The notes beneath the pieces are model-generated. The model did no database searches and was not told where the DNA came from. It saw only the letters and a list, made by a program, of their open reading frames with translations. A stretch of DNA of 21,073 nt, from the IMG/VR virus record IMGVR_UViG_3300025632_000100, positions 1 through 21,073 of that record; one strand, given 5' to 3'. This DNA is from a virus. The stretch's first letter is position 1. Every line of letters starts with the position of its first letter. Positions 1 through 9,136 of the stretch are shown here, in pieces. A program made the position numbers and the translations under genes.

Positions 1-3000
1 TTCATATGATAATATTCCATTCATATGTGATAAGAATACATTCATATTTTCAAAAATTGATTTTGAAGTATCTATAATAAAGTTTGTTTGATGTCGAGTT
101 ACAAAACATTGTTTGTGGTGTTCCCACCCCATGTATCTCCAATATTTTACGAAGTCTGAATCATATATTGAGTAATCTGGTACAATTCCTTTATTTCCGA
201 TCATATCAATAGTAATAGCACTTGGACCACTGCCCGATTCTTTCGTAAGATCAAAAGTTCCTGCACTTATATAAGTAACTCCACCTACTGTTCCACTTTC
301 ATGAGTAGGTTTAGATGTTAAGTATCCTGCTCCTGATTTTTGGTATAAGTTTTCTTCTGTAGTTATATATTCATCATCTGCATATGCTATATGCTTTCCA
401 TATAGTCTTACAAATTTACCAGATAGCTGATCAAAAGTTACTTTATTTGTAGAAGTAGCAGAAACTCTAGCTGACCCCAAATGATTGCCACTTCCATCTG
501 CTAATTTATAATAATCACCAACAGTTATTCCTGTCGTTCTAGTGCCGAGTGTAAGGGTGCCTCTGACTTCACAAAGTTTTGCTGAAGAAATAAAAGAAGC
601 TAAATCAATGTCCTCGTTTTCATTTAAATCTTTTCCATAACGAGGATCTTTCATGTAATCAAGTAGTTGTAAAGCTGTATTTGTTACTGCACGTCTATCT
701 CCTTGAGTACCTGAAATATCAAACTTTATAATTCCTGCATCATATTCTGCTTCTCTTAAAGTCCTAAAAGGAGATTCTATTTCAATTCGTTTTTCACTTG
801 CTACATAGCTAGTAATTTTTCTGCTTTCTCCGCTATGATTTAATGTAATTGTTGCTCCAGTAAAGTCAGCGTTATTATTAAAACCATCAAAAGGCGCACC
901 TGATCCACCCATATAGAAGTTTCTACTTTTATATACATCTATATTGAGTACATTTGCAATACTTCCGATTGCAACATTTCCATGATTTGCTGAATTATAC
1001 TTTACATTTTTAAGTGTAAGAACATCTCCACTCCATGTACCAACAGCATGATTATCTTGTAAATGTGATAAAGTTGAACAATCATTTACTAAAAAGCTGT
1101 ATAAAGCTTTTCCTGGTTGACTTGCAATCTCATTTGTATATCCTGCTTTTAATAGGTTTGCATCAGTAGTTGAAAAAGTAAACTGTATTTCATTACTTCC
1201 ATTTACACCAACTGCTGTAGGAGATTTTGCATATAAAGTAAAGTTTTGATTTGTAATATTTCTATGATTAAAAGTTCTCATATGCCAGTATTGAGCGGCA
1301 CCTGTTTTCTTTAATCTTAAATATGTTTTTGTTGGTAGCCCATTAACTGCATCTAAGTCTGGAGTTTGATCTAATAAGAATCTATAGTGTGACGTTCCAT
1401 CATTATTTGTAAGTAAATATTTATGTAATATTCGGAAACTTGTATCATCAGAATCTCCTTCTACATTTGTTGTAGCCCAAGAACTTCCATCTGTACTTCT
1501 TTCAACAGTGACTGTATCTCCTTCTTTAAAGTTTGTATGTGCATCACTTGCACCTATAACTGTATCTGGTACATAAGAGTTATCAAAATTATAACACTCA
1601 AGAACTCTACCTCTAACGACATATTCTAGTTCAGGTATTTCTGTTGAATCTGCTGAGATTACAAACGCATTTACCATATATGCAGTATCTAATAATCTGT
1701 GGTCTGGACTCCAATAAGGAACATCTGATTCATAATAATCATTTTGTCTTTTGAATCCTGTTCCTTGCGCTTGAGTTACAAGCATATTTGATGCTAACTG
1801 AGAGTTTGATCCTTTATTAAAAGTAAAGGACATATTATGTGGATGAGAGATACTTCCGTGTTCTTGATGTTGTAGCCCTCCTGCATCTGCACTTTGAGCA
1901 GTTATGCTAGGAACAGCGCTCTGTGATACGTTTGCAAACCAGTAAGAAGCTTGTCTTTGTAAGTTTCTATATATGTTTCTTATTTCGTCTGGGTCAGAAG
2001 AATCTTCTACAGCTTCTAAGTACATTTGACTTAAAGGAGAAGTTCCTACATAATTTGTTAAAGCACTCGCTATTCCAGTATCTGCTGCTCCTCCTAAAGT
2101 GTCTCCTTTGTCTGCTCTTCCATAACATTGTAAAGCGGCTTCATCTCTTTTTAAAGTTCCATCTGCATTAGTACTAGTGCTTGTTGCTCCACGTACATCT
2201 GCATCATTTGCGTCTGTACATATTAAAGGAACTCCATCAATATATAAATTATATAAACTGTGAATTTCTCCCTCGCACATTGCATCTGCAACATATACTA
2301 TTTTTGAATCATTTGCATCTGTATCAGCAAATACTGGTATACCAGGAAGTCTTTGTACTCCATATACAACAGGTAAGTATTTTCCTTGTAGACCTATATT
2401 TAAATCAACTTCATTATCTATCTCTTTTTGAACTTCTGTTGAAGTCATTTTCTTACCACCAAGTAGACCAGCAAAACCTCCTCGTTTTTTCATCTTATAA
2501 ACAATTTCTGTTTCATAAGTTTTATAGTTTGCTATTGCACTAAGTGTTGTTTCTGAGTGCATAAATCCTAAATCATCTGCATATTCAGGTTTAATTGTTA
2601 AGTCAGGATCTGATTTTCCCTTTAAGTCTAAAGCTCTATGAGTATCATCTGTAGTTAGTCGCCCTCCGACTTGAGACCAGTCTCCCCAGTGACTTGTAAG
2701 ATTCCATTTTACATTACTTGCAGTAGGTCCTTCGTCTATAGAGCATCCTGCAATAATTCCTTTGAATATAAGAATACTAGAGTTTCCTATTATATCTCCT
2801 GTTTCAGGATCTATGAATACTTTGTGAACGAATACTTCTCGATTGAGAAAAGAGGGGTTGGCTAAAGAGTTGGTTTCTTTTTCATTTAGAACAGCTTTGA
2901 TTTCATCAGATTCTAAAGAAATTGTTACTGAAACTCCAGAGTCTGTTGGATAAGTTGTATCATCATCTGCATCTGCTCCTGTAGTAGCAAAAGTCATTTT

Positions 3001-3549
3001 ACGATTATCACTCGCAAATCCAGTAATGATATATGTTACAGAACTTGCTCCAGTAGAAAATGTACCACTATTTTTTGTTATTTTTACTTTGTCACCTTCA
3101 CGAAAACCAAAGTCCACTAAGTCTGTAGCGTCTGCATCATCATGAAAAGTAGTTGCTACTGTGAATGCAGCACTGCCGAAGTCTCCTGTTATAGATAGTG
3201 AAGTTCCAAGATGATCTCCTGAAAGTGTAAGAGCCATGTTTGTTGCTCTAGGTGAGGTTGTTTCTGAATACGAACCAATAGATTTTACTCTGTTTGCTCT
3301 GTATATTTGGGATCCATTTGATTGATCTTCATGATCTGTGCTCTGATCATTAAAACTTATATCACGACTTGCATCAGTAAAGTAAGCATATCTATTCGCA
3401 TTAGTACGAAATGTAGACATTTGTTTTACACCATTTTCATCTGTTTCAATAGGAAATGGACGCTCGAATTTTATAAGATGAGCATATTCAAATTCAGAAT
3501 TACTTACTAAAACTTCTTCAATAGAAGTATTTATACTGCGTTTAGTCAT
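1..3549 (-). CDS. Tail tip / central tail hub protein (gpJ-like), 3'-partial
   Basis: An uninterrupted frame of 1183 codons runs from the ATG at 3549 to the left edge with no stop, so the C-terminus lies outside the window. It follows the tape measure and a distal-tail-like gene, where siphophages encode the baseplate hub and host-contact protein. Visible segments: an N-terminal beta-rich part (residues 1-260), IAGCSIDEG and SHWGDW (about 266-289), a Gly-rich basic turn (KKRGGFAGLLGGKK, about 350-364), LPVVYGVQ (about 391), CEGEIHSLYNLYIDG (about 425-439), EYVVRGRVLECYN (about 642-654) and KDPRYGKDL (about 967). The LPVVYG, CEG.I and V.RG.V segments are typical of hub proteins that bind the tail tube end. 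It shares a TAATG overlap with the upstream gene and has a strong GAGGAGG site. The hub role is inferred from motifs and gene order; receptor binding is not visible. Confidence 0.85.
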   Translation of the reverse strand, partial: MTKRSINTSIEEVLVSNSEFEYAHLIKFERPFPIETDENGVKQMSTFRTNANRYAYFTDASRDISFNDQSTDHEDQSNGSQIYRANRVKSIGSYSETTSPRATNMALTLSGDHLGTSLSITGDFGSAAFTVATTFHDDADATDLVDFGFREGDKVKITKNSGTFSTGASSVTYIITGFASDNRKMTFATTGADADDDTTYPTDSGVSVTISLESDEIKAVLNEKETNSLANPSFLNREVFVHKVFIDPETGDIIGNSSILIFKGIIAGCSIDEGPTASNVKWNLTSHWGDWSQVGGRLTTDDTHRALDLKGKSDPDLTIKPEYADDLGFMHSETTLSAIANYKTYETEIVYKMKKRGGFAGLLGGKKMTSTEVQKEIDNEVDLNIGLQGKYLPVVYGVQRLPGIPVFADTDANDSKIVYVADAMCEGEIHSLYNLYIDGVPLICTDANDADVRGATSTSTNADGTLKRDEAALQCYGRADKGDTLGGAADTGIASALTNYVGTSPLSQMYLEAVEDSSDPDEIRNIYRNLQRQASYWFANVSQSAVPSITAQSADAGGLQHQEHGSISHPHNMSFTFNKGSNSQLASNMLVTQAQGTGFKRQNDYYESDVPYWSPDHRLLDTAYMVNAFVISADSTEIPELEYVVRGRVLECYNFDNSYVPDTVIGASDAHTNFKEGDTVTVERSTDGSSWATTNVEGDSDDTSFRILHKYLLTNNDGTSHYRFLLDQTPDLDAVNGLPTKTYLRLKKTGAAQYWHMRTFNHRNITNQNFTLYAKSPTAVGVNGSNEIQFTFSTTDANLLKAGYTNEIASQPGKALYSFLVNDCSTLSHLQDNHAVGTWSGDVLTLKNVKYNSANHGNVAIGSIANVLNIDVYKSRNFYMGGSGAPFDGFNNNADFTGATITLNHSGESRKITSYVASEKRIEIESPFRTLREAEYDAGIIKFDISGTQGDRRAVTNTALQLLDYMKDPRYGKDLNENEDIDLASFISSAKLCEVRGTLTLGTRTTGITVGDYYKLADGSGNHLGSARVSATSTNKVTFDQLSGKFVRLYGKHIAYADDEYITTEENLYQKSGAGYLTSKPTHESGTVGGVTYISAGTFDLTKESGSGPSAITIDMIGNKGIVPDYSIYDSDFVKYWRYMGWEHHKQCFVTRHQTNFIIDTSKSIFENMNVFLSHMNGILSYE

Positions 3550-4265
3550 TAGGCTTGAGCCTCCTCTAAGTTAAGACTAAAAGTGTACAAGTTATTTGTT
3601 CCAAGTGAGTATTCTTGTACATCTGATTTTTGTACTACACGAAAAAGTGGACTTGCATATGTAATTGTTGAGTTGTCTGTTACATCTTTTTCGACTGGTG
3701 GAACAACATATAATCTTCTTTCATCAGAAGTATTTAATGCAGTATCAGAGGATAGTTTATTCGTTGAGTCTGCGACTCTTACCACTTTATAAATTTTATG
3801 ATGATTGGAATTTCCAGAATCTGAGAAATTGAACATATCCCCAGGACGTAATCCACCAGTGAGACTATCCATCCCATCTACTAAAAAATTTGAATCTCCT
3901 GCAGTTATAGTTCCTTGAACTGAAAGTGTTCCACTTGTTGTAGTTCGAGTTGCAACATGTTGTGGTAAAGCAACAAAAAAGGGTTTAAGTCGTCCTCTTT
4001 TTTCAAGTAAAAAGTTGTAAATTGGTTCAAACTCATCCCGAGTCATAGGGTTATATGTAATACCTATACTCCAGTGATGACCGACTATTGATCTTGTAGT
4101 TACACGACCACTATTTGTTCTTGAAAATGAAACAGGTTGATTAGCAGTAAATTTAACCGACGCAAAGCCTGGCCCTTCTGTGTAACTTGTTGCGTGTCCT
4201 TCTCCTGCTTCACTGATTCCCCAGTTTGGGTCAGGTAATCGATTTGTAAATGCACTAAAAGCCAT
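3549..4265 (-). CDS. Distal-tail-like / minor tail protein
   Basis: A 238-aa protein between the tape measure and the tail hub gene, the position of distal tail (Dit, lambda gpM/gpL-region) proteins in siphophages. The N-terminal 100 residues are beta-rich, with a HHWSIGITYNPMTRDEFE segment followed by a short helix and a KPFFVALP strand. This resembles the first domain of tail proteins that cap the tube. Residues about 138-177 form a separate GD...SG...TNK beta unit also seen in the hub gene. The C-terminus returns to a strand (LYTFSLNLEEA). The start overlaps the tape measure stop as TAATG, with GGAGGGGGAGG just upstream as ribosome binding site, so translation is probably coupled. I recognise the context better than the sequence, so the exact tail role is inferred. 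Confidence 0.65.
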   Translation of the reverse strand: MAFSAFTNRLPDPNWGISEAGEGHATSYTEGPGFASVKFTANQPVSFSRTNSGRVTTRSIVGHHWSIGITYNPMTRDEFEPIYNFLLEKRGRLKPFFVALPQHVATRTTTSGTLSVQGTITAGDSNFLVDGMDSLTGGLRPGDMFNFSDSGNSNHHKIYKVVRVADSTNKLSSDTALNTSDERRLYVVPPVEKDVTDNSTITYASPLFRVVQKSDVQEYSLGTNNLYTFSLNLEEAQA

Positions 4266-7200
4266 TAGCCTCCCCCTCCATAAACTGTAGGATCAACTGT
4301 TTCTAAAAAACCTTCTCCATTGTCGTTTGCTGCTTGTCTGATCATTGCTATGATATTTCCTTGTTGTTCGTTGAGCATATTTTGTACGCTTGCTCCGTCT
4401 ACTGCGCTAATATTAAAGTTGATGTTTTGTGCTTGTCCGCCTAAAGCAAAGTTTGGTGTTATGTCTACTGGGCTTGTAGGAGTTATTACTTCTGGTCCTC
4501 TTTCTCCAACAACTATTCCGTCTGCTCCATTTGCATAACCTTTTCTTCCCATTGCTGCACCAGTAAAGTTATTTGCATTTGTTCCAACTCCTCTATCTCC
4601 TCGTAAGTAAGAAAGTTCACCCGCTGTAGCTCTCTGAGAAGTATCAACTGCATTTCCTCTTCCTCCAATCTTCAAAGCTGTTTGTTGTACTTTTGGAGAT
4701 TCTCCTCCACCGCCTTGGAATTGTTGTCTTTGAATAATTGCAATCTGAGCCGCACCCATTGCTCCAATCATTGCTGCCATTGCGATTCTTAATGTAGTTG
4801 GTCCGTTAGCATTATCTCCGAGTGCTGCTACAACACCTGATGCTGTATTTGCGATTGCTGCTGCTATTTGCATTTTCTTGTTTCTTTCAAATGCTTTTCT
4901 TTGTATAGCTTCTTTTTTCTTTTCCATAGCTGATATTTTTGCTACAGATTCTGCGGATTTTCCGTCTCTTTTCTTTTCAAGTTCGATTTGTTCTTCTATA
5001 CTTGCAACTTGTGCTTTTGCTTGATTTTGTAGTATAGATCCTATGCTTGTTATAGCGCTTCCGACTGCGAGTAATCCTTCTGCTGAAGTAAGACCTGCTG
5101 TTTTTATTGTGTCAAAAGAGCTTGCCATTTGTAATGCACCTTCTCCAAAACTTGCTGCTAGTTCTCCTTCTGGTCCGAGTTTTCTTAGGTCTTCGAAGAG
5201 AGGAGACATTGATTCTCTCATTGCAGTTATTTTTGCCTGAAACGAAGCAGTATCACTATCAAGTGTTGTTCCTGCATCTTGTACCCTTTCTCTAAAATCA
5301 CCAGACGTACCTGAACCTGATAACGCTTTCATATCGTTGCTGTCTGCAGTTATTATACTTTGTCCAAATTTTGCTACAGAAGCGTCATCTTTTAATCCTT
5401 CTAATTTTTTTATAATGGCTTCGGCTGCCTTTTGGTCTTTTTCAGAAGCACCAAATACTCTCAGTTTTAATAGTTCAAGTTCAAATTGTAATTTGTTTAA
5501 TTCTTGTTCTCTATTTAATAAATCCAAAGCTCTTTTTCGATCTAACTCAGATTGTTCTAAAACGTCTGCTGTTTTATCTGCAGCAGATATTTGAAACTTA
5601 CCTGATAATCTAAATTCTCTTGCCGCCTTTTCAAAAACTCTAGCGGCATCTTGTAGTTTGTTCGTTGCTCCGATTGCTGCTATTTCTGCATTTAGTTTTT
5701 TGATTTCATTTGCGTTTGTTCGTGATTTTACTGCTATTTCTTCTAAAGAGTTGACAAAATCGACTGCTTCTCCTGTTCCTTTTTGAAATGCTTCTACAAG
5801 ATCTTCAACGGTTAAACCAAAATCCTTTAAAGCTCCTGCTGGTAATTCATTTTCAACAAAAGTTTTTAAACTTTCAAAACTATCTGTTTTTGCAAGTATT
5901 GTTCCTTTGTCTATTATTTTTTGAAAACCATCTGAAAGTTCATCAAAAGTATTTTCCTTTAACAATGCTTTTTTATTTTTACTAAATATTTTTGTAAATT
6001 CTTGAAAGTCTTTGCCAAATTCAGTTGCGGCGTCATTTCCACTTGTAATACTATTAGTTAATTTGAAGTATTCTTCAGTTATAGCTTTTAAAGAAGCTTG
6101 TAAACCTTTTCCAGCTTTCATTGAGTCATCAAATATTTTTTGAGGATCAAAACTTTCTAAACTTTCTTGTAGTTTATCACCAACTTCAGTTCCTGCAGTT
6201 TCTGCTAGCAACTGTGCCATTGATTGATTGACTTCTCGTATTGCTTTAGAGGCTTTCATAGCTTCTTGATCAAAGCCAAGTGCTTTTGCTGCTGTTGTTC
6301 CCAGTCCTGCCAACAGATCTAGTGCAGGTCCAAAATATGTCATAAAAGACTGGCCTACAAATACAAATATGTTTCCTACTTTTTTGACTCCTTCTCCTAG
6401 CATAGCCATACTATGACTAAAGATACTTACTTTGGCCTCTCCTGAAGATACTTCTCTTAGAAATAGGTTCATATTTGAACCAAATTCTTCTACTATACCT
6501 GCAGTTACTTTTAGTGTATTTCCTTGTTCTATTGTTTTTACATTGAGTTGATCAAAAGCAACTCCTGCTTTTGATAAACTTCGTTCTATTCCTGCGTTTG
6601 TTTTATCTAATTGAGAAAGTTTTTCATTAACAGTTTCTACAGTTTGATTCATATTATCTAAAGCTTTTGATACGTCATTTACAGATGTAAAAAAGCTTTT
6701 AAGAAATCCTATTATCATTCCCCCAAAGAATAATATTTGTCCAAATACTGGTATTGCATTTAATAGTGCAGATCCAAATAATTTTGCTGCTCCACCTGCT
6801 AAAGTAAAGTTTTTCTTTGCGCTTAATCCAATTCCTTGAAAAAATGAAAGACCTGACTTTTTAGATTCTGAAAATCCTCCTTTGATTTTTGTTTTGAACT
6901 TATCAAATTCTTGATTCGCTATCTTAAATCCTTCTAGTGATCCTGCTCCTCCAATTAACGCTAAACTTCCCTCTTCTCCTGCTAATCCTGCCGATGCATC
7001 TGCTCTTCCTGCTAAAAATGCGGAGGATCCTCTTGTACTACTTCTACCTTCTTGCTTTCTTTGAGTTTTTTCAATTTGGTTACTAAGATCTCGTAACTCC
7101 TGCATTCTAGTTTTATGCGCATCTGAATTCAGAGTACCGTTCTTTTTAGCAATTGCTTGTTGCCTTTTCATTGTGTTATTGACTTGATTTTGAGCTTTCT

Positions 7201-8350
7201 CAAAATCTTTTGATTCTGCTGTGTTTGATTTTAATTTTTTCTGCAAAGCATTTACTGAACTGAATTCTGCTCCACTTTTTGTTTTTGCTTTTGATCCTCT
7301 TACTAAGTCTATTTTTGCAGTTTGTGCAGCTACTTTACCTGCATTTGCAGCTTCAGCTGCCATAAATTTTGCACTATTTGCAACTTGTGTTTGTTTTTCT
7401 GCCATATTACCAAGAGCAGGAATCATTGTTGTAAGAATTGTACTACCAAACAGTACTAGACCACCTATCATGGCGGAACTAGAACCTGCAATAATACTTA
7501 AGAATGGAGCAAAAACTGTATTTATAAGTTTAAGTCCTTTTCGAGTGAGTTCTTCGAAAGCAGCAGAAAGCTGATCGAATTGGTTGGGTTTTACAGCATC
7601 TGACAATGCTCCATATTTTTTAGCGCCTTGTTCAATCGTAGCATTTAAGAAAGCCTGTCGTCTTTCTGCATCTGTTAATTGAGTTGCACTTTTATTAAGA
7701 GAGGCTGCATATTCTGTTACTGCAGTATCTAATCTTACAAGGATACCTAATTCATCCAAAATCTCTGGTTCGAGTTTTGCAACACCTCGGAATAATCTAT
7801 CGATAGAATCGGTCATATTTCTTCCAAGTGCAATTGAAGCATTTCTTGCTACTTCTGTTAGTTGTGCAATTTGGTCTGTTCTAAATCCTGAGGTAACGGC
7901 AATTGATGCAGAACGAAGTGCTGTTTCTAGTGAAATGGCATTGTCTGTTACTTGGCGAATTCCTTCAGCAATTTGTAAAGATGTTTTACCTGCTTGATTA
8001 CCTAAAAATGTAAAACCTTCTATAAGAGTATCTACCTGTGCTGCAGTTCGTAGAGCGTTAAAAGCAGCGGTTGCCGCAAAGACGTTCGCTGCTAATGTAG
8101 CATAAGCACCAACAAGACCAGAAGAGCCCCCTCCCATAGTTTCTTTCATTTTTGAGAAACCTTTTGCGGAAGAAAGATTACTTTGATATAAAGCTTTTTC
8201 TTTTTTATTCGTATTATCTTGAGCTTTATTTAATTTTTTATGAGAACCAGCAGTTTCATCAATACCTTTTTGAAGTTTTTTCTGATTGCGTTGAACAACC
8301 TCGAAACCCTTCGATGTTGCTACTACTTCAAATACTACTTTATTCGCCAT
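4265..8350 (-). CDS. Tape measure protein
   Basis: At 1361 aa this is by far the longest complete gene, placed directly after the two tail-chaperone frames, as expected for the tape measure protein that sets tail length and is ejected with the DNA. The N-terminal 80 residues are charged and helical; residues about 80-260 hold a conserved helical block (NMTDSIDRLFRGVAKLEPEI). Two hydrophobic stretches lie near residues 290-315 and 525-553, typical membrane-seeking segments. Long Lys/Glu/Gln-rich coiled-coil stretches fill residues about 560-1200, then an Ala-rich helix. Near residue 1280 is VVGERGPEVITP, a segment common near the C-terminus of tape measure proteins. At about 0.15 nm per residue the tail would be near 200 nm. 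It starts in a TAATG overlap with weak Shine-Dalgarno support, suggesting translational coupling. No lytic transglycosylase or peptidase motif was seen. Confidence 0.93.
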   Translation of the reverse strand: MANKVVFEVVATSKGFEVVQRNQKKLQKGIDETAGSHKKLNKAQDNTNKKEKALYQSNLSSAKGFSKMKETMGGGSSGLVGAYATLAANVFAATAAFNALRTAAQVDTLIEGFTFLGNQAGKTSLQIAEGIRQVTDNAISLETALRSASIAVTSGFRTDQIAQLTEVARNASIALGRNMTDSIDRLFRGVAKLEPEILDELGILVRLDTAVTEYAASLNKSATQLTDAERRQAFLNATIEQGAKKYGALSDAVKPNQFDQLSAAFEELTRKGLKLINTVFAPFLSIIAGSSSAMIGGLVLFGSTILTTMIPALGNMAEKQTQVANSAKFMAAEAANAGKVAAQTAKIDLVRGSKAKTKSGAEFSSVNALQKKLKSNTAESKDFEKAQNQVNNTMKRQQAIAKKNGTLNSDAHKTRMQELRDLSNQIEKTQRKQEGRSSTRGSSAFLAGRADASAGLAGEEGSLALIGGAGSLEGFKIANQEFDKFKTKIKGGFSESKKSGLSFFQGIGLSAKKNFTLAGGAAKLFGSALLNAIPVFGQILFFGGMIIGFLKSFFTSVNDVSKALDNMNQTVETVNEKLSQLDKTNAGIERSLSKAGVAFDQLNVKTIEQGNTLKVTAGIVEEFGSNMNLFLREVSSGEAKVSIFSHSMAMLGEGVKKVGNIFVFVGQSFMTYFGPALDLLAGLGTTAAKALGFDQEAMKASKAIREVNQSMAQLLAETAGTEVGDKLQESLESFDPQKIFDDSMKAGKGLQASLKAITEEYFKLTNSITSGNDAATEFGKDFQEFTKIFSKNKKALLKENTFDELSDGFQKIIDKGTILAKTDSFESLKTFVENELPAGALKDFGLTVEDLVEAFQKGTGEAVDFVNSLEEIAVKSRTNANEIKKLNAEIAAIGATNKLQDAARVFEKAAREFRLSGKFQISAADKTADVLEQSELDRKRALDLLNREQELNKLQFELELLKLRVFGASEKDQKAAEAIIKKLEGLKDDASVAKFGQSIITADSNDMKALSGSGTSGDFRERVQDAGTTLDSDTASFQAKITAMRESMSPLFEDLRKLGPEGELAASFGEGALQMASSFDTIKTAGLTSAEGLLAVGSAITSIGSILQNQAKAQVASIEEQIELEKKRDGKSAESVAKISAMEKKKEAIQRKAFERNKKMQIAAAIANTASGVVAALGDNANGPTTLRIAMAAMIGAMGAAQIAIIQRQQFQGGGGESPKVQQTALKIGGRGNAVDTSQRATAGELSYLRGDRGVGTNANNFTGAAMGRKGYANGADGIVVGERGPEVITPTSPVDITPNFALGGQAQNINFNISAVDGASVQNMLNEQQGNIIAMIRQAANDNGEGFLETVDPTVYGGGG

Positions 8351-8676
8351 TAACTTTTTCTTTTCATTCGGTCATACTCAGCTTTTAACTTTTTCTGAGA
8401 TGCTTCGATTGCTCTACTGTCTAAAAACAGTAATGTTTCAAATACATATTCTTTTTGGTGTTCTTCGACTCCATAATGTTCCATTAGATAGTCAAAGGTT
8501 GTATAATCTTTACCTATATACCCTATGTCTGGATATATTCGATCCCCCATACTATAAAATATATTCATAGTCTTGACGGTTAGTTCTGGAAAATCTTCCC
8601 AGTCTGGAGGACATTTTTCCCAATCGGGTTCTTCCTCCATTTGATCCATCATTTCAAGATACTGGTCTTTTGTCAT
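8350..8676 (-). CDS. Tail assembly chaperone, downstream frame (gpT-like part of a frameshift product)
   Basis: The frame from the ATG at 8676 encodes 108 acidic residues (KDQYLEMMDQMEEEPDWE near the start, then a Lys/Arg-rich tail). It sits between the gpG-like chaperone and the tape measure gene. The ATG has no Shine-Dalgarno sequence upstream (the leader reads AATAAAGATATTGGT). The same frame stays open upstream to 8751, overlapping the end of the 143-aa gene by 47 nt, and the extension reads as a plausible amphipathic helix (AAKNKEKLQKRLEVFLDNK). I therefore infer that this part is made mainly as a C-terminal extension of the upstream protein through a ribosomal frameshift, giving about 261 aa, as for lambda gpG-gpGT. 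The frame relation is +1 (equivalently -2), not the usual -1. Its stop overlaps the tape measure start (TAATG). Confidence 0.7.
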   Translation of the reverse strand: MTKDQYLEMMDQMEEEPDWEKCPPDWEDFPELTVKTMNIFYSMGDRIYPDIGYIGKDYTTFDYLMEHYGVEEHQKEYVFETLLFLDSRAIEASQKKLKAEYDRMKRKS

Positions 8677-8704: not shown

Positions 8705-9136
8705 TCAAGTCTCTTTTGGAGCTTTTCCTTGTTCTTTGCTGCGAAAGTTTTCTAAATCAAAGACTACCTCGTTGAGCCAGTTATCAAACTCACTTGAGTT
8801 TTCTACTAACACTTGAGCATTAGTTTCTGAAAATTCCATTTCGTCTTCTGGATTCTGGTCTTTTAGATCAACAAGTAATAAATCTTGTAAATATTCTAAT
8901 TTTAATCCTTTCCAATTTTTAACTGTTGCTTTTGTAAATTCTACAACAAATTTTTCATCATTTAATTCATCTTCAAATTGACGAGTCTTACGATTAAATT
9001 TATTAATTGTACACTTCTTGCGAAGGCTTGTTAATTCTTTTCTTGATAGATTTGCAAGTTCTACTTCAAATCCAAGTAATCCTGGGAATTCCGCCCAAGT
9101 AGTTTTACTATCTACTAATAGTGATTTTAATTCCAT
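8705..9136 (-). CDS. Tail assembly chaperone, upstream frame (gpG-like)
   Basis: A 143-aa acidic, mostly helical protein immediately upstream of the tape measure region, in the place of lambda gpG. Chaperones of this kind bind the tape measure protein and keep it soluble until tube subunits polymerise around it. The N-terminus (MELKSLLVDSKTTWAEFPGL) reads like an alpha/beta start, followed by a Lys-rich stretch (LRKKCTINKFNRKTRQFEDEL, about residues 38-58) and an acidic C-terminal helix. The ATG is preceded by TTAGGAGAATATAACACA, a good ribosome binding site about 10 nt away. The short tail after residue 131 (RSKEQGKAPKET) is probably replaced in a fraction of molecules by the downstream frame through frameshifting. 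The function rests on position, size and the frameshift architecture, not on a recognised motif. Confidence 0.75.
   Translation of the reverse strand: MELKSLLVDSKTTWAEFPGLLGFEVELANLSRKELTSLRKKCTINKFNRKTRQFEDELNDEKFVVEFTKATVKNWKGLKLEYLQDLLLVDLKDQNPEDEMEFSETNAQVLVENSSEFDNWLNEVVFDLENFRSKEQGKAPKET
8743..8746 (-). other. Candidate +1 ribosomal frameshift site (TTT_C)
   Basis: In the gpG-like frame the codons read AAC TTT CGC AGC. A one-base forward slip of the Phe tRNA from TTT to TTC enters the downstream frame (GCA GCA AAG...), which is open from 8751 onward after a TAG at 8752-8754. UUU followed by CGN is a known +1 slip context in other systems. Alternative +1 sites in the same window are three AAA_G positions further downstream. 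The exact slip site is inferred; the frame geometry is seen directly. Confidence 0.4.

Follow-up and report, generated by a model that had tools for sequence, protein, structure and literature searches.

Analysis of a virus record of 21,073 nucleotides (nt) (IMG/VR IMGVR_UViG_3300025632_000100, positions 1 to 21,073; 21 kb, the whole stretch being referred to here as the window) indicates that a marine T5-like siphovirus very probably expresses its tail assembly chaperone gene with a +1 programmed ribosomal frameshift, giving a fusion protein of the G-T type with a predicted length of 261 amino acids (aa), and that the same shift very probably operates in T5 and in hundreds of relatives. The genes at the chaperone junction and their neighbours all lie on the minus strand. 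The upstream chaperone open reading frame (ORF; 9136-8705, 143 aa) ends with TGA at 8707-8705; the downstream frame, immediately preceded by a TAG, is open from 8751 to a stop at 8350 (133 aa) and overlaps the upstream ORF by 47 nt, with its codon starts offset by +1 or, equivalently, by -2. Inside the overlap, TTT (8746-8744) is followed by CGC (8743-8741), and a shift at this TTT_CGC site (8746-8741) would join 131 residues of frame 0 (...ENF) to 130 residues of frame +1 (AAK...) over positions 9136-8350. The sole ATG of the downstream frame (8676-8674) has no Shine-Dalgarno sequence, and a second in-frame TTTC (GTA_TTT_CTA) is present within frame +1. An initial annotation of the window had already described the overlap, the +1 or -2 relation of the frames, the TTT_CGC within the overlap, the unaccompanied ATG and a fusion of about 261 aa, and all of these were reproduced.

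We propose that most ribosomes would translate frame 0 as far as the TGA at 8707-8705 and release the short chaperone, G. In a small share of cases, the P-site tRNA-Phe would leave TTT, CGC being the A-site codon, and move forward by one base to TTC (8745-8743), where its pairing is perfect, so that the next codon becomes GCA (8742-8740) and translation continues in frame +1 to 8350, yielding the G-T fusion of 261 aa. If gpG and gpGT of phage lambda are a guide, G would coat the tape measure protein, the T part would recruit the tail tube subunit, and the frequency of slipping would set the G:GT ratio.

Conservation of the slip site

The initial annotation offered TTT_CGC as a candidate slip site and proposed comparing the overlap in relatives; the comparison revealed a conserved site, of which only TTT_C is invariant. 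In the 80 close IMG/VR relatives compared first, the second frame is +1 throughout and each carries the motif AAY/CAC_TTT_CGY, while the position of the 0-frame stop drifts (143-150 aa). Phage T5 (T5.143/T5.142) also has its second frame in +1, as do thirteen further T5-like phages of Enterobacterales and Vibrio, and the site in all of them is TTT_CGT or TTT_CGA. Profile searches added 240 loci, and 379 records were then scanned with two hidden Markov models; removal of duplicates left 244 distinct gene pairs, every one with an overlap, and a single in-frame fusion. Of the pairs, 127 have a +1 and 117 a -1 second frame. Each of the 127 distinct +1 pairs has an in-frame TTT_C in the overlap (TTT_CGT in 103, TTT_CGC in 17, TTT_CGA in 4, TTT_CAC in 2 and TTT_CAA in 1), compared with 3.2% of equal-length in-frame segments elsewhere in the +1 genes.

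The bases T, T, T and C at the slip have zero entropy in 79 aligned relatives. The phenylalanine codon at the site is TTT in 77 of 77 genes, against 483 TTT to 160 TTC elsewhere in the genes (p = 2e-9), and the arginine codon is CGN in 77 of 77, against 142 CGN to 218 AGR elsewhere (p = 4e-27); both p-values are overstated because the sequences are related, although the direction is clear. The A-site codon is CGN in 124 of the 127 +1 pairs, and the retention of TTT_C in the three pairs with CAC or CAA separates the two roles, the bases involved in re-pairing staying when the A-site codon changes. As at the influenza A PA-X site, the P-site tRNA can re-pair perfectly one base 3' (UUU to UUC). 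The phages My1 (junction GAC TCC TTT CGT TAA) and D126 (junction AAC TTT CGT TAA) narrow the place further: a +1-frame stop just 5' and a 0-frame stop just 3' confine the shift to three sense codons, and therefore TTT to TTC is the only step that gives perfect re-pairing.

Selection in the overlap and the internal start codon

Within the overlap, frame +1 is under purifying selection and frame 0 is not: the ratio of non-synonymous to synonymous polymorphism (pN/pS) in 79 aligned relatives is 0.45 in frame +1 versus 1.14 in frame 0. For the stretch from the 0-frame stop to the ATG, frame +1 has a pN/pS of 0.23 (ten sequences permitting the test). These values bear on an alternative to which we assign a low probability, namely that the downstream frame is a separate gene translated without any frameshift from its own ATG at 8676, either by translational coupling or by reinitiation 3' of the TGA at 8705. 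Most public records do annotate two genes, and 118 of 130 relatives have an ATG after the slip and before the conserved domain, its position being fixed in most of them (GM[TS]K); in the window the ATG stands 28 nt 3' of the 0-frame stop. Yet a Shine-Dalgarno match of at least 4 nt precedes the upstream gene in 129 of the 130 relatives and the internal start in only 7, and another count of 7 of 130, including Brizo, KEY and KKP_3711, is that of relatives with no ATG, GTG or TTG 5' of the conserved domain. The relatives thus do not combine a conserved start and ribosome binding site at this place with an unconserved overlap, the arrangement that the initial annotation had named as evidence against a frameshift. 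Independent initiation also fails to account for the purifying selection on the residues between slip and ATG, which belong to a predicted helix of the T domain, for the invariant TTT_C, or for the match between frame direction and type of slip site described below. Translation probably does not initiate independently at the ATG at 8676.

Direction of the shift and the wider family

The initial annotation left the direction as +1 or -2, and the frame relation alone fits both equally. The +1 alternative is upheld by the re-pairing of TTT to TTC, which is perfect in every member. A -2 shift into the same frame in the manner of phage Mu is very improbable, since at the only conserved site tRNA-Phe would meet ACT, CCT, CTT or CGT, with which it could not re-pair, and no conserved run permits re-pairing at -2. 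A lambda-type -1 shift was considered for the window and rejected, the second frame being +1.

Such -1 shifts are predicted among the 117 homologous pairs with a -1 second frame, every one of which carries a canonical X_XXY_YYZ heptamer, mainly G_GGA_AAC, A_AAT_TTT or A_AAA_AAC. The type of slip site therefore matches the direction of the frame throughout the family (TTT_C in 127 of 127 +1 pairs; a heptamer in 117 of 117 -1 pairs). Sequence comparison indicates that the -1 members are true homologues of the +1 chaperones. One of them (L217) is 44% identical to the chaperone of the window up to ...DLGNF/DLENF and 33% identical to the T domain; another (L340) is placed, by inspection, between genes resembling those for tail and tape measure proteins. 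The -1 pairs shift at the same place with lambda-like heptamers. In an unrooted tree of 75 representatives, which gives no polarity, a single change of direction suffices (branch support 100/98). A heptamer also occurs in the overlap of 41 of the 127 +1 members, usually A_AAT_TTT, for example within AAT_TTT_CGT.

Split frames in AT-rich sequence are commonly caused by slippage during transcription or by errors of sequencing or assembly; here both are likewise very remote explanations of the frame change, for there is no long homopolymer (the longest nearby runs are 4 A or 3-4 T) and the split recurs in T5 and in more than 200 independent records, which also answers the sequencing error that the initial annotation had raised.

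The single in-frame fusion among the records (L270, 1153-1872) encodes the chaperone and T domain as one ORF that lacks about 30 residues in the part where the slip usually lies; it is either a member without a frameshift or the result of faulty assembly.

RNA context and codon usage

Several observations weigh against a programmed +1 frameshift or against parts of its proposed mechanism. A consensus fold of 14 relatives contained zero pairs, giving no conserved RNA structure 3' of the slip, and no consensus pairing 3' of the slip was found among 80 relatives either. A contribution of pausing at the CGN codon in the A site is conceivable in the window, where 6 of the 201 arginine codons of its other genes are CGC; in T5, CGT supplies 245 of 562 arginine codons and hence is not rare. 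In-frame TTT_CGN is also not avoided in other T5 genes (7 seen versus 8.0 expected), which implies that the hexamer alone is not strongly shifty, and a +1 shift at this site must be assumed to depend on additional context or to have low efficiency.

Between positions 70001 and 120000 of T5, in-frame TTT_C occurs at half of its expectation (25 versus 49), general codon-pair bias being uncontrolled in this count. The shuffle z-score, calculated in the search for a 3' stimulatory structure, averages -0.6. A hairpin in the window (8687-8657, minus strand) that spans the internal ATG has a z-score of -2.7 and is not conserved in relatives. A Shine-Dalgarno-like stimulator near the slip, as in prfB, was sought and rejected: the GAGGU present lies 19 nt upstream, whereas the spacing in prfB is only a few bases.

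A candidate stimulator of another kind lies 5' of the slip in the marine group of relatives. There, 18-34 nt 5' of the slip, the block C_TGG_CTC_AAY_GAG_GTA_GTC (in the window C_TGG_CTC_AAC_GAG_GTA_GTC, 8780-8762) has nearly frozen synonymous sites while its neighbours are free, with CTC in 74 of 76 sequences, GAG in 75 of 75, GTA in 75 of 76 and GTC in 74 of 76. The Kullback-Leibler divergence at synonymous sites of the block reaches 2.9 bits, compared with 0.13 on average in the background. The block includes GAGGU and can form a weak consensus hairpin (-2.9 kcal/mol) that leaves the third base of GTC unexplained. This conservation prompts the hypothesis that the block may act as a 5' stimulator; the T5 isolates did not show it, and it is altered in a few members of the marine group. 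A joint scenario, which we put forward tentatively and consider rather doubtful, is that the family switched direction once at the same codons (-1 on A_AAT_TTT or G_GGA_AAC; +1 on TTT_C in the T5 and marine members) and that the 5' RNA element of the marine group stimulates the forward slip from behind the ribosome.

Relation to known frameshifts

Chaperone frameshifts in tailed phages are -1, -2 or +1 depending on the phage (PMC5009743); +1 is the rarer direction, most phages slipping backward for the chaperone. The frameshift in the tail chaperone genes G and GT of lambda and relatives is the subject of Xu, Hendrix and Duda (2004), as cited in PMC5009743 and PMC10885494. The genes described here resemble that pair in lying between the tail tube genes and the tape measure gene, in their two-frame G-T layout and in overlapping at the 3' end, and the homologous -1 members carry the lambda-like heptamers G_GGA_AAC and G_GGA_AAG. 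They differ in that the predicted shift is +1 by single P-site slippage on TTT_C, whereas that of lambda is -1 by tandem slippage on X_XXY_YYZ.

The nearest parallel in the slip sequence is the +1 site of influenza A PA-X, UCC_UUU_CGU (Firth 2012, PMC3498833), which shares the tetramer UUU_C and, with most of the phage members, the A-site codon CGU; unlike the chaperone site, it belongs to a eukaryotic virus and ribosome and to an unrelated protein, and its E-site codon UCC is found here only in My1-type members. Other +1 shifts in structural or tail genes of phages are those in capsid or tail tube genes of the Listeria phages PSA, A118 and A500 and of SPP1, and one described as "very likely +1" in the tail chaperone of the haloarchaeal HSTV-2 (PMC5009743, PMC3498833). 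The Listeria phage sites differ from TTT_C in being CCC_UGA or CCC_UCC, and are found in tube or capsid genes rather than chaperones.

Among T5-like phages, the record of Salmonella phage Shivani (KP143763) contains a joined "tape measure chaperone" coding sequence of 832 nt (3n+1), which fits +1 or -2. It involves the same gene pair and the same TTT_CGT site; the join is known from the annotation alone, and the accompanying paper is silent on it (PMC4342426). A 2018 paper on Sugarland describes T5 and Sugarland as being without a predicted frameshift signal (PMC6256483), a statement that conflicts with the putative +1 site in both phages, each of which has ACT_TTT_CGT and a +1 frame. The literature searched, which did not extend to most subscription papers, yielded no earlier account of a +1 signal for the chaperones of T5-like phages.

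If the +1 frameshift is real, the G:GT mechanism extends to the T5-like phages with the other slip direction and without need of a heptamer. T5 serves as a model phage, and in most records of T5-like phages the two chaperone frames are annotated as separate proteins. The 127 +1 and 117 -1 orthologous sites offer a natural comparison for how frameshift direction changes, and the family is useful for asking what makes UUU_C, the tetramer also used by influenza A PA-X, shifty in bacteria.

Predicted proteins and the tail module

Both halves of the predicted fusion are related to known tail chaperones, as judged by PHROG families and, for the upstream half, weak fold matches. The upstream protein, a homologue of T5.143/p139, matches phrog_313 (tail assembly chaperone, E=3.7e-13) and, less strongly than the family cut-off, Pfam Phage_TAC_5 (XkdN-like, E=6e-4); the downstream frame (8751-8350), a homologue of T5.142/p138, matches phrog_3914 (tail assembly chaperone, E=1.3e-16). 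In an AlphaFold2 model of the upstream chaperone (predicted local distance difference test score, pLDDT, 83), the fold extends as far as the slip site, with residues 135-142, which form the 0-frame tail, disordered. Its top two matches among solved structures, YqbN (Z 5.1) and the HK97 tail assembly chaperone (Z 4.1), are weak and both of the expected kind; searching the sequences of solved structures with a profile of the upstream protein gave no meaningful match. The corresponding model of the T domain (pLDDT 92.7) begins with a helix (residues 3-23) that starts at the slip site, 5' of the ATG.

The surrounding genes constitute a T5-like (Demerecviridae-like) tail module, with homologues of the terminator, p140, the chaperones and pb9 in the order of T5. 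The neighbours 5' of the chaperone are the tail terminator, the major tail protein and, directly upstream, a homologue of the baseplate tail tube protein p140 (10059-9151; PF23779, E=4e-25; phrog_3889). The neighbours 3' are a pb9-like distal tail protein and, directly downstream of the T domain, a gene of 1361 aa (8350-4265) that is assigned to the tape measure protein by position and length, its match to PF24164 (E=7e-4) being below the cut-off. The two overlapping ORFs in different frames thus occupy the position of G and GT between the tail tube and tape measure genes. Farther upstream, one long ORF at 16408-14282 (minus strand) resembles a fusion of prohead protease and major capsid protein, each of which has a gene of its own in T5.
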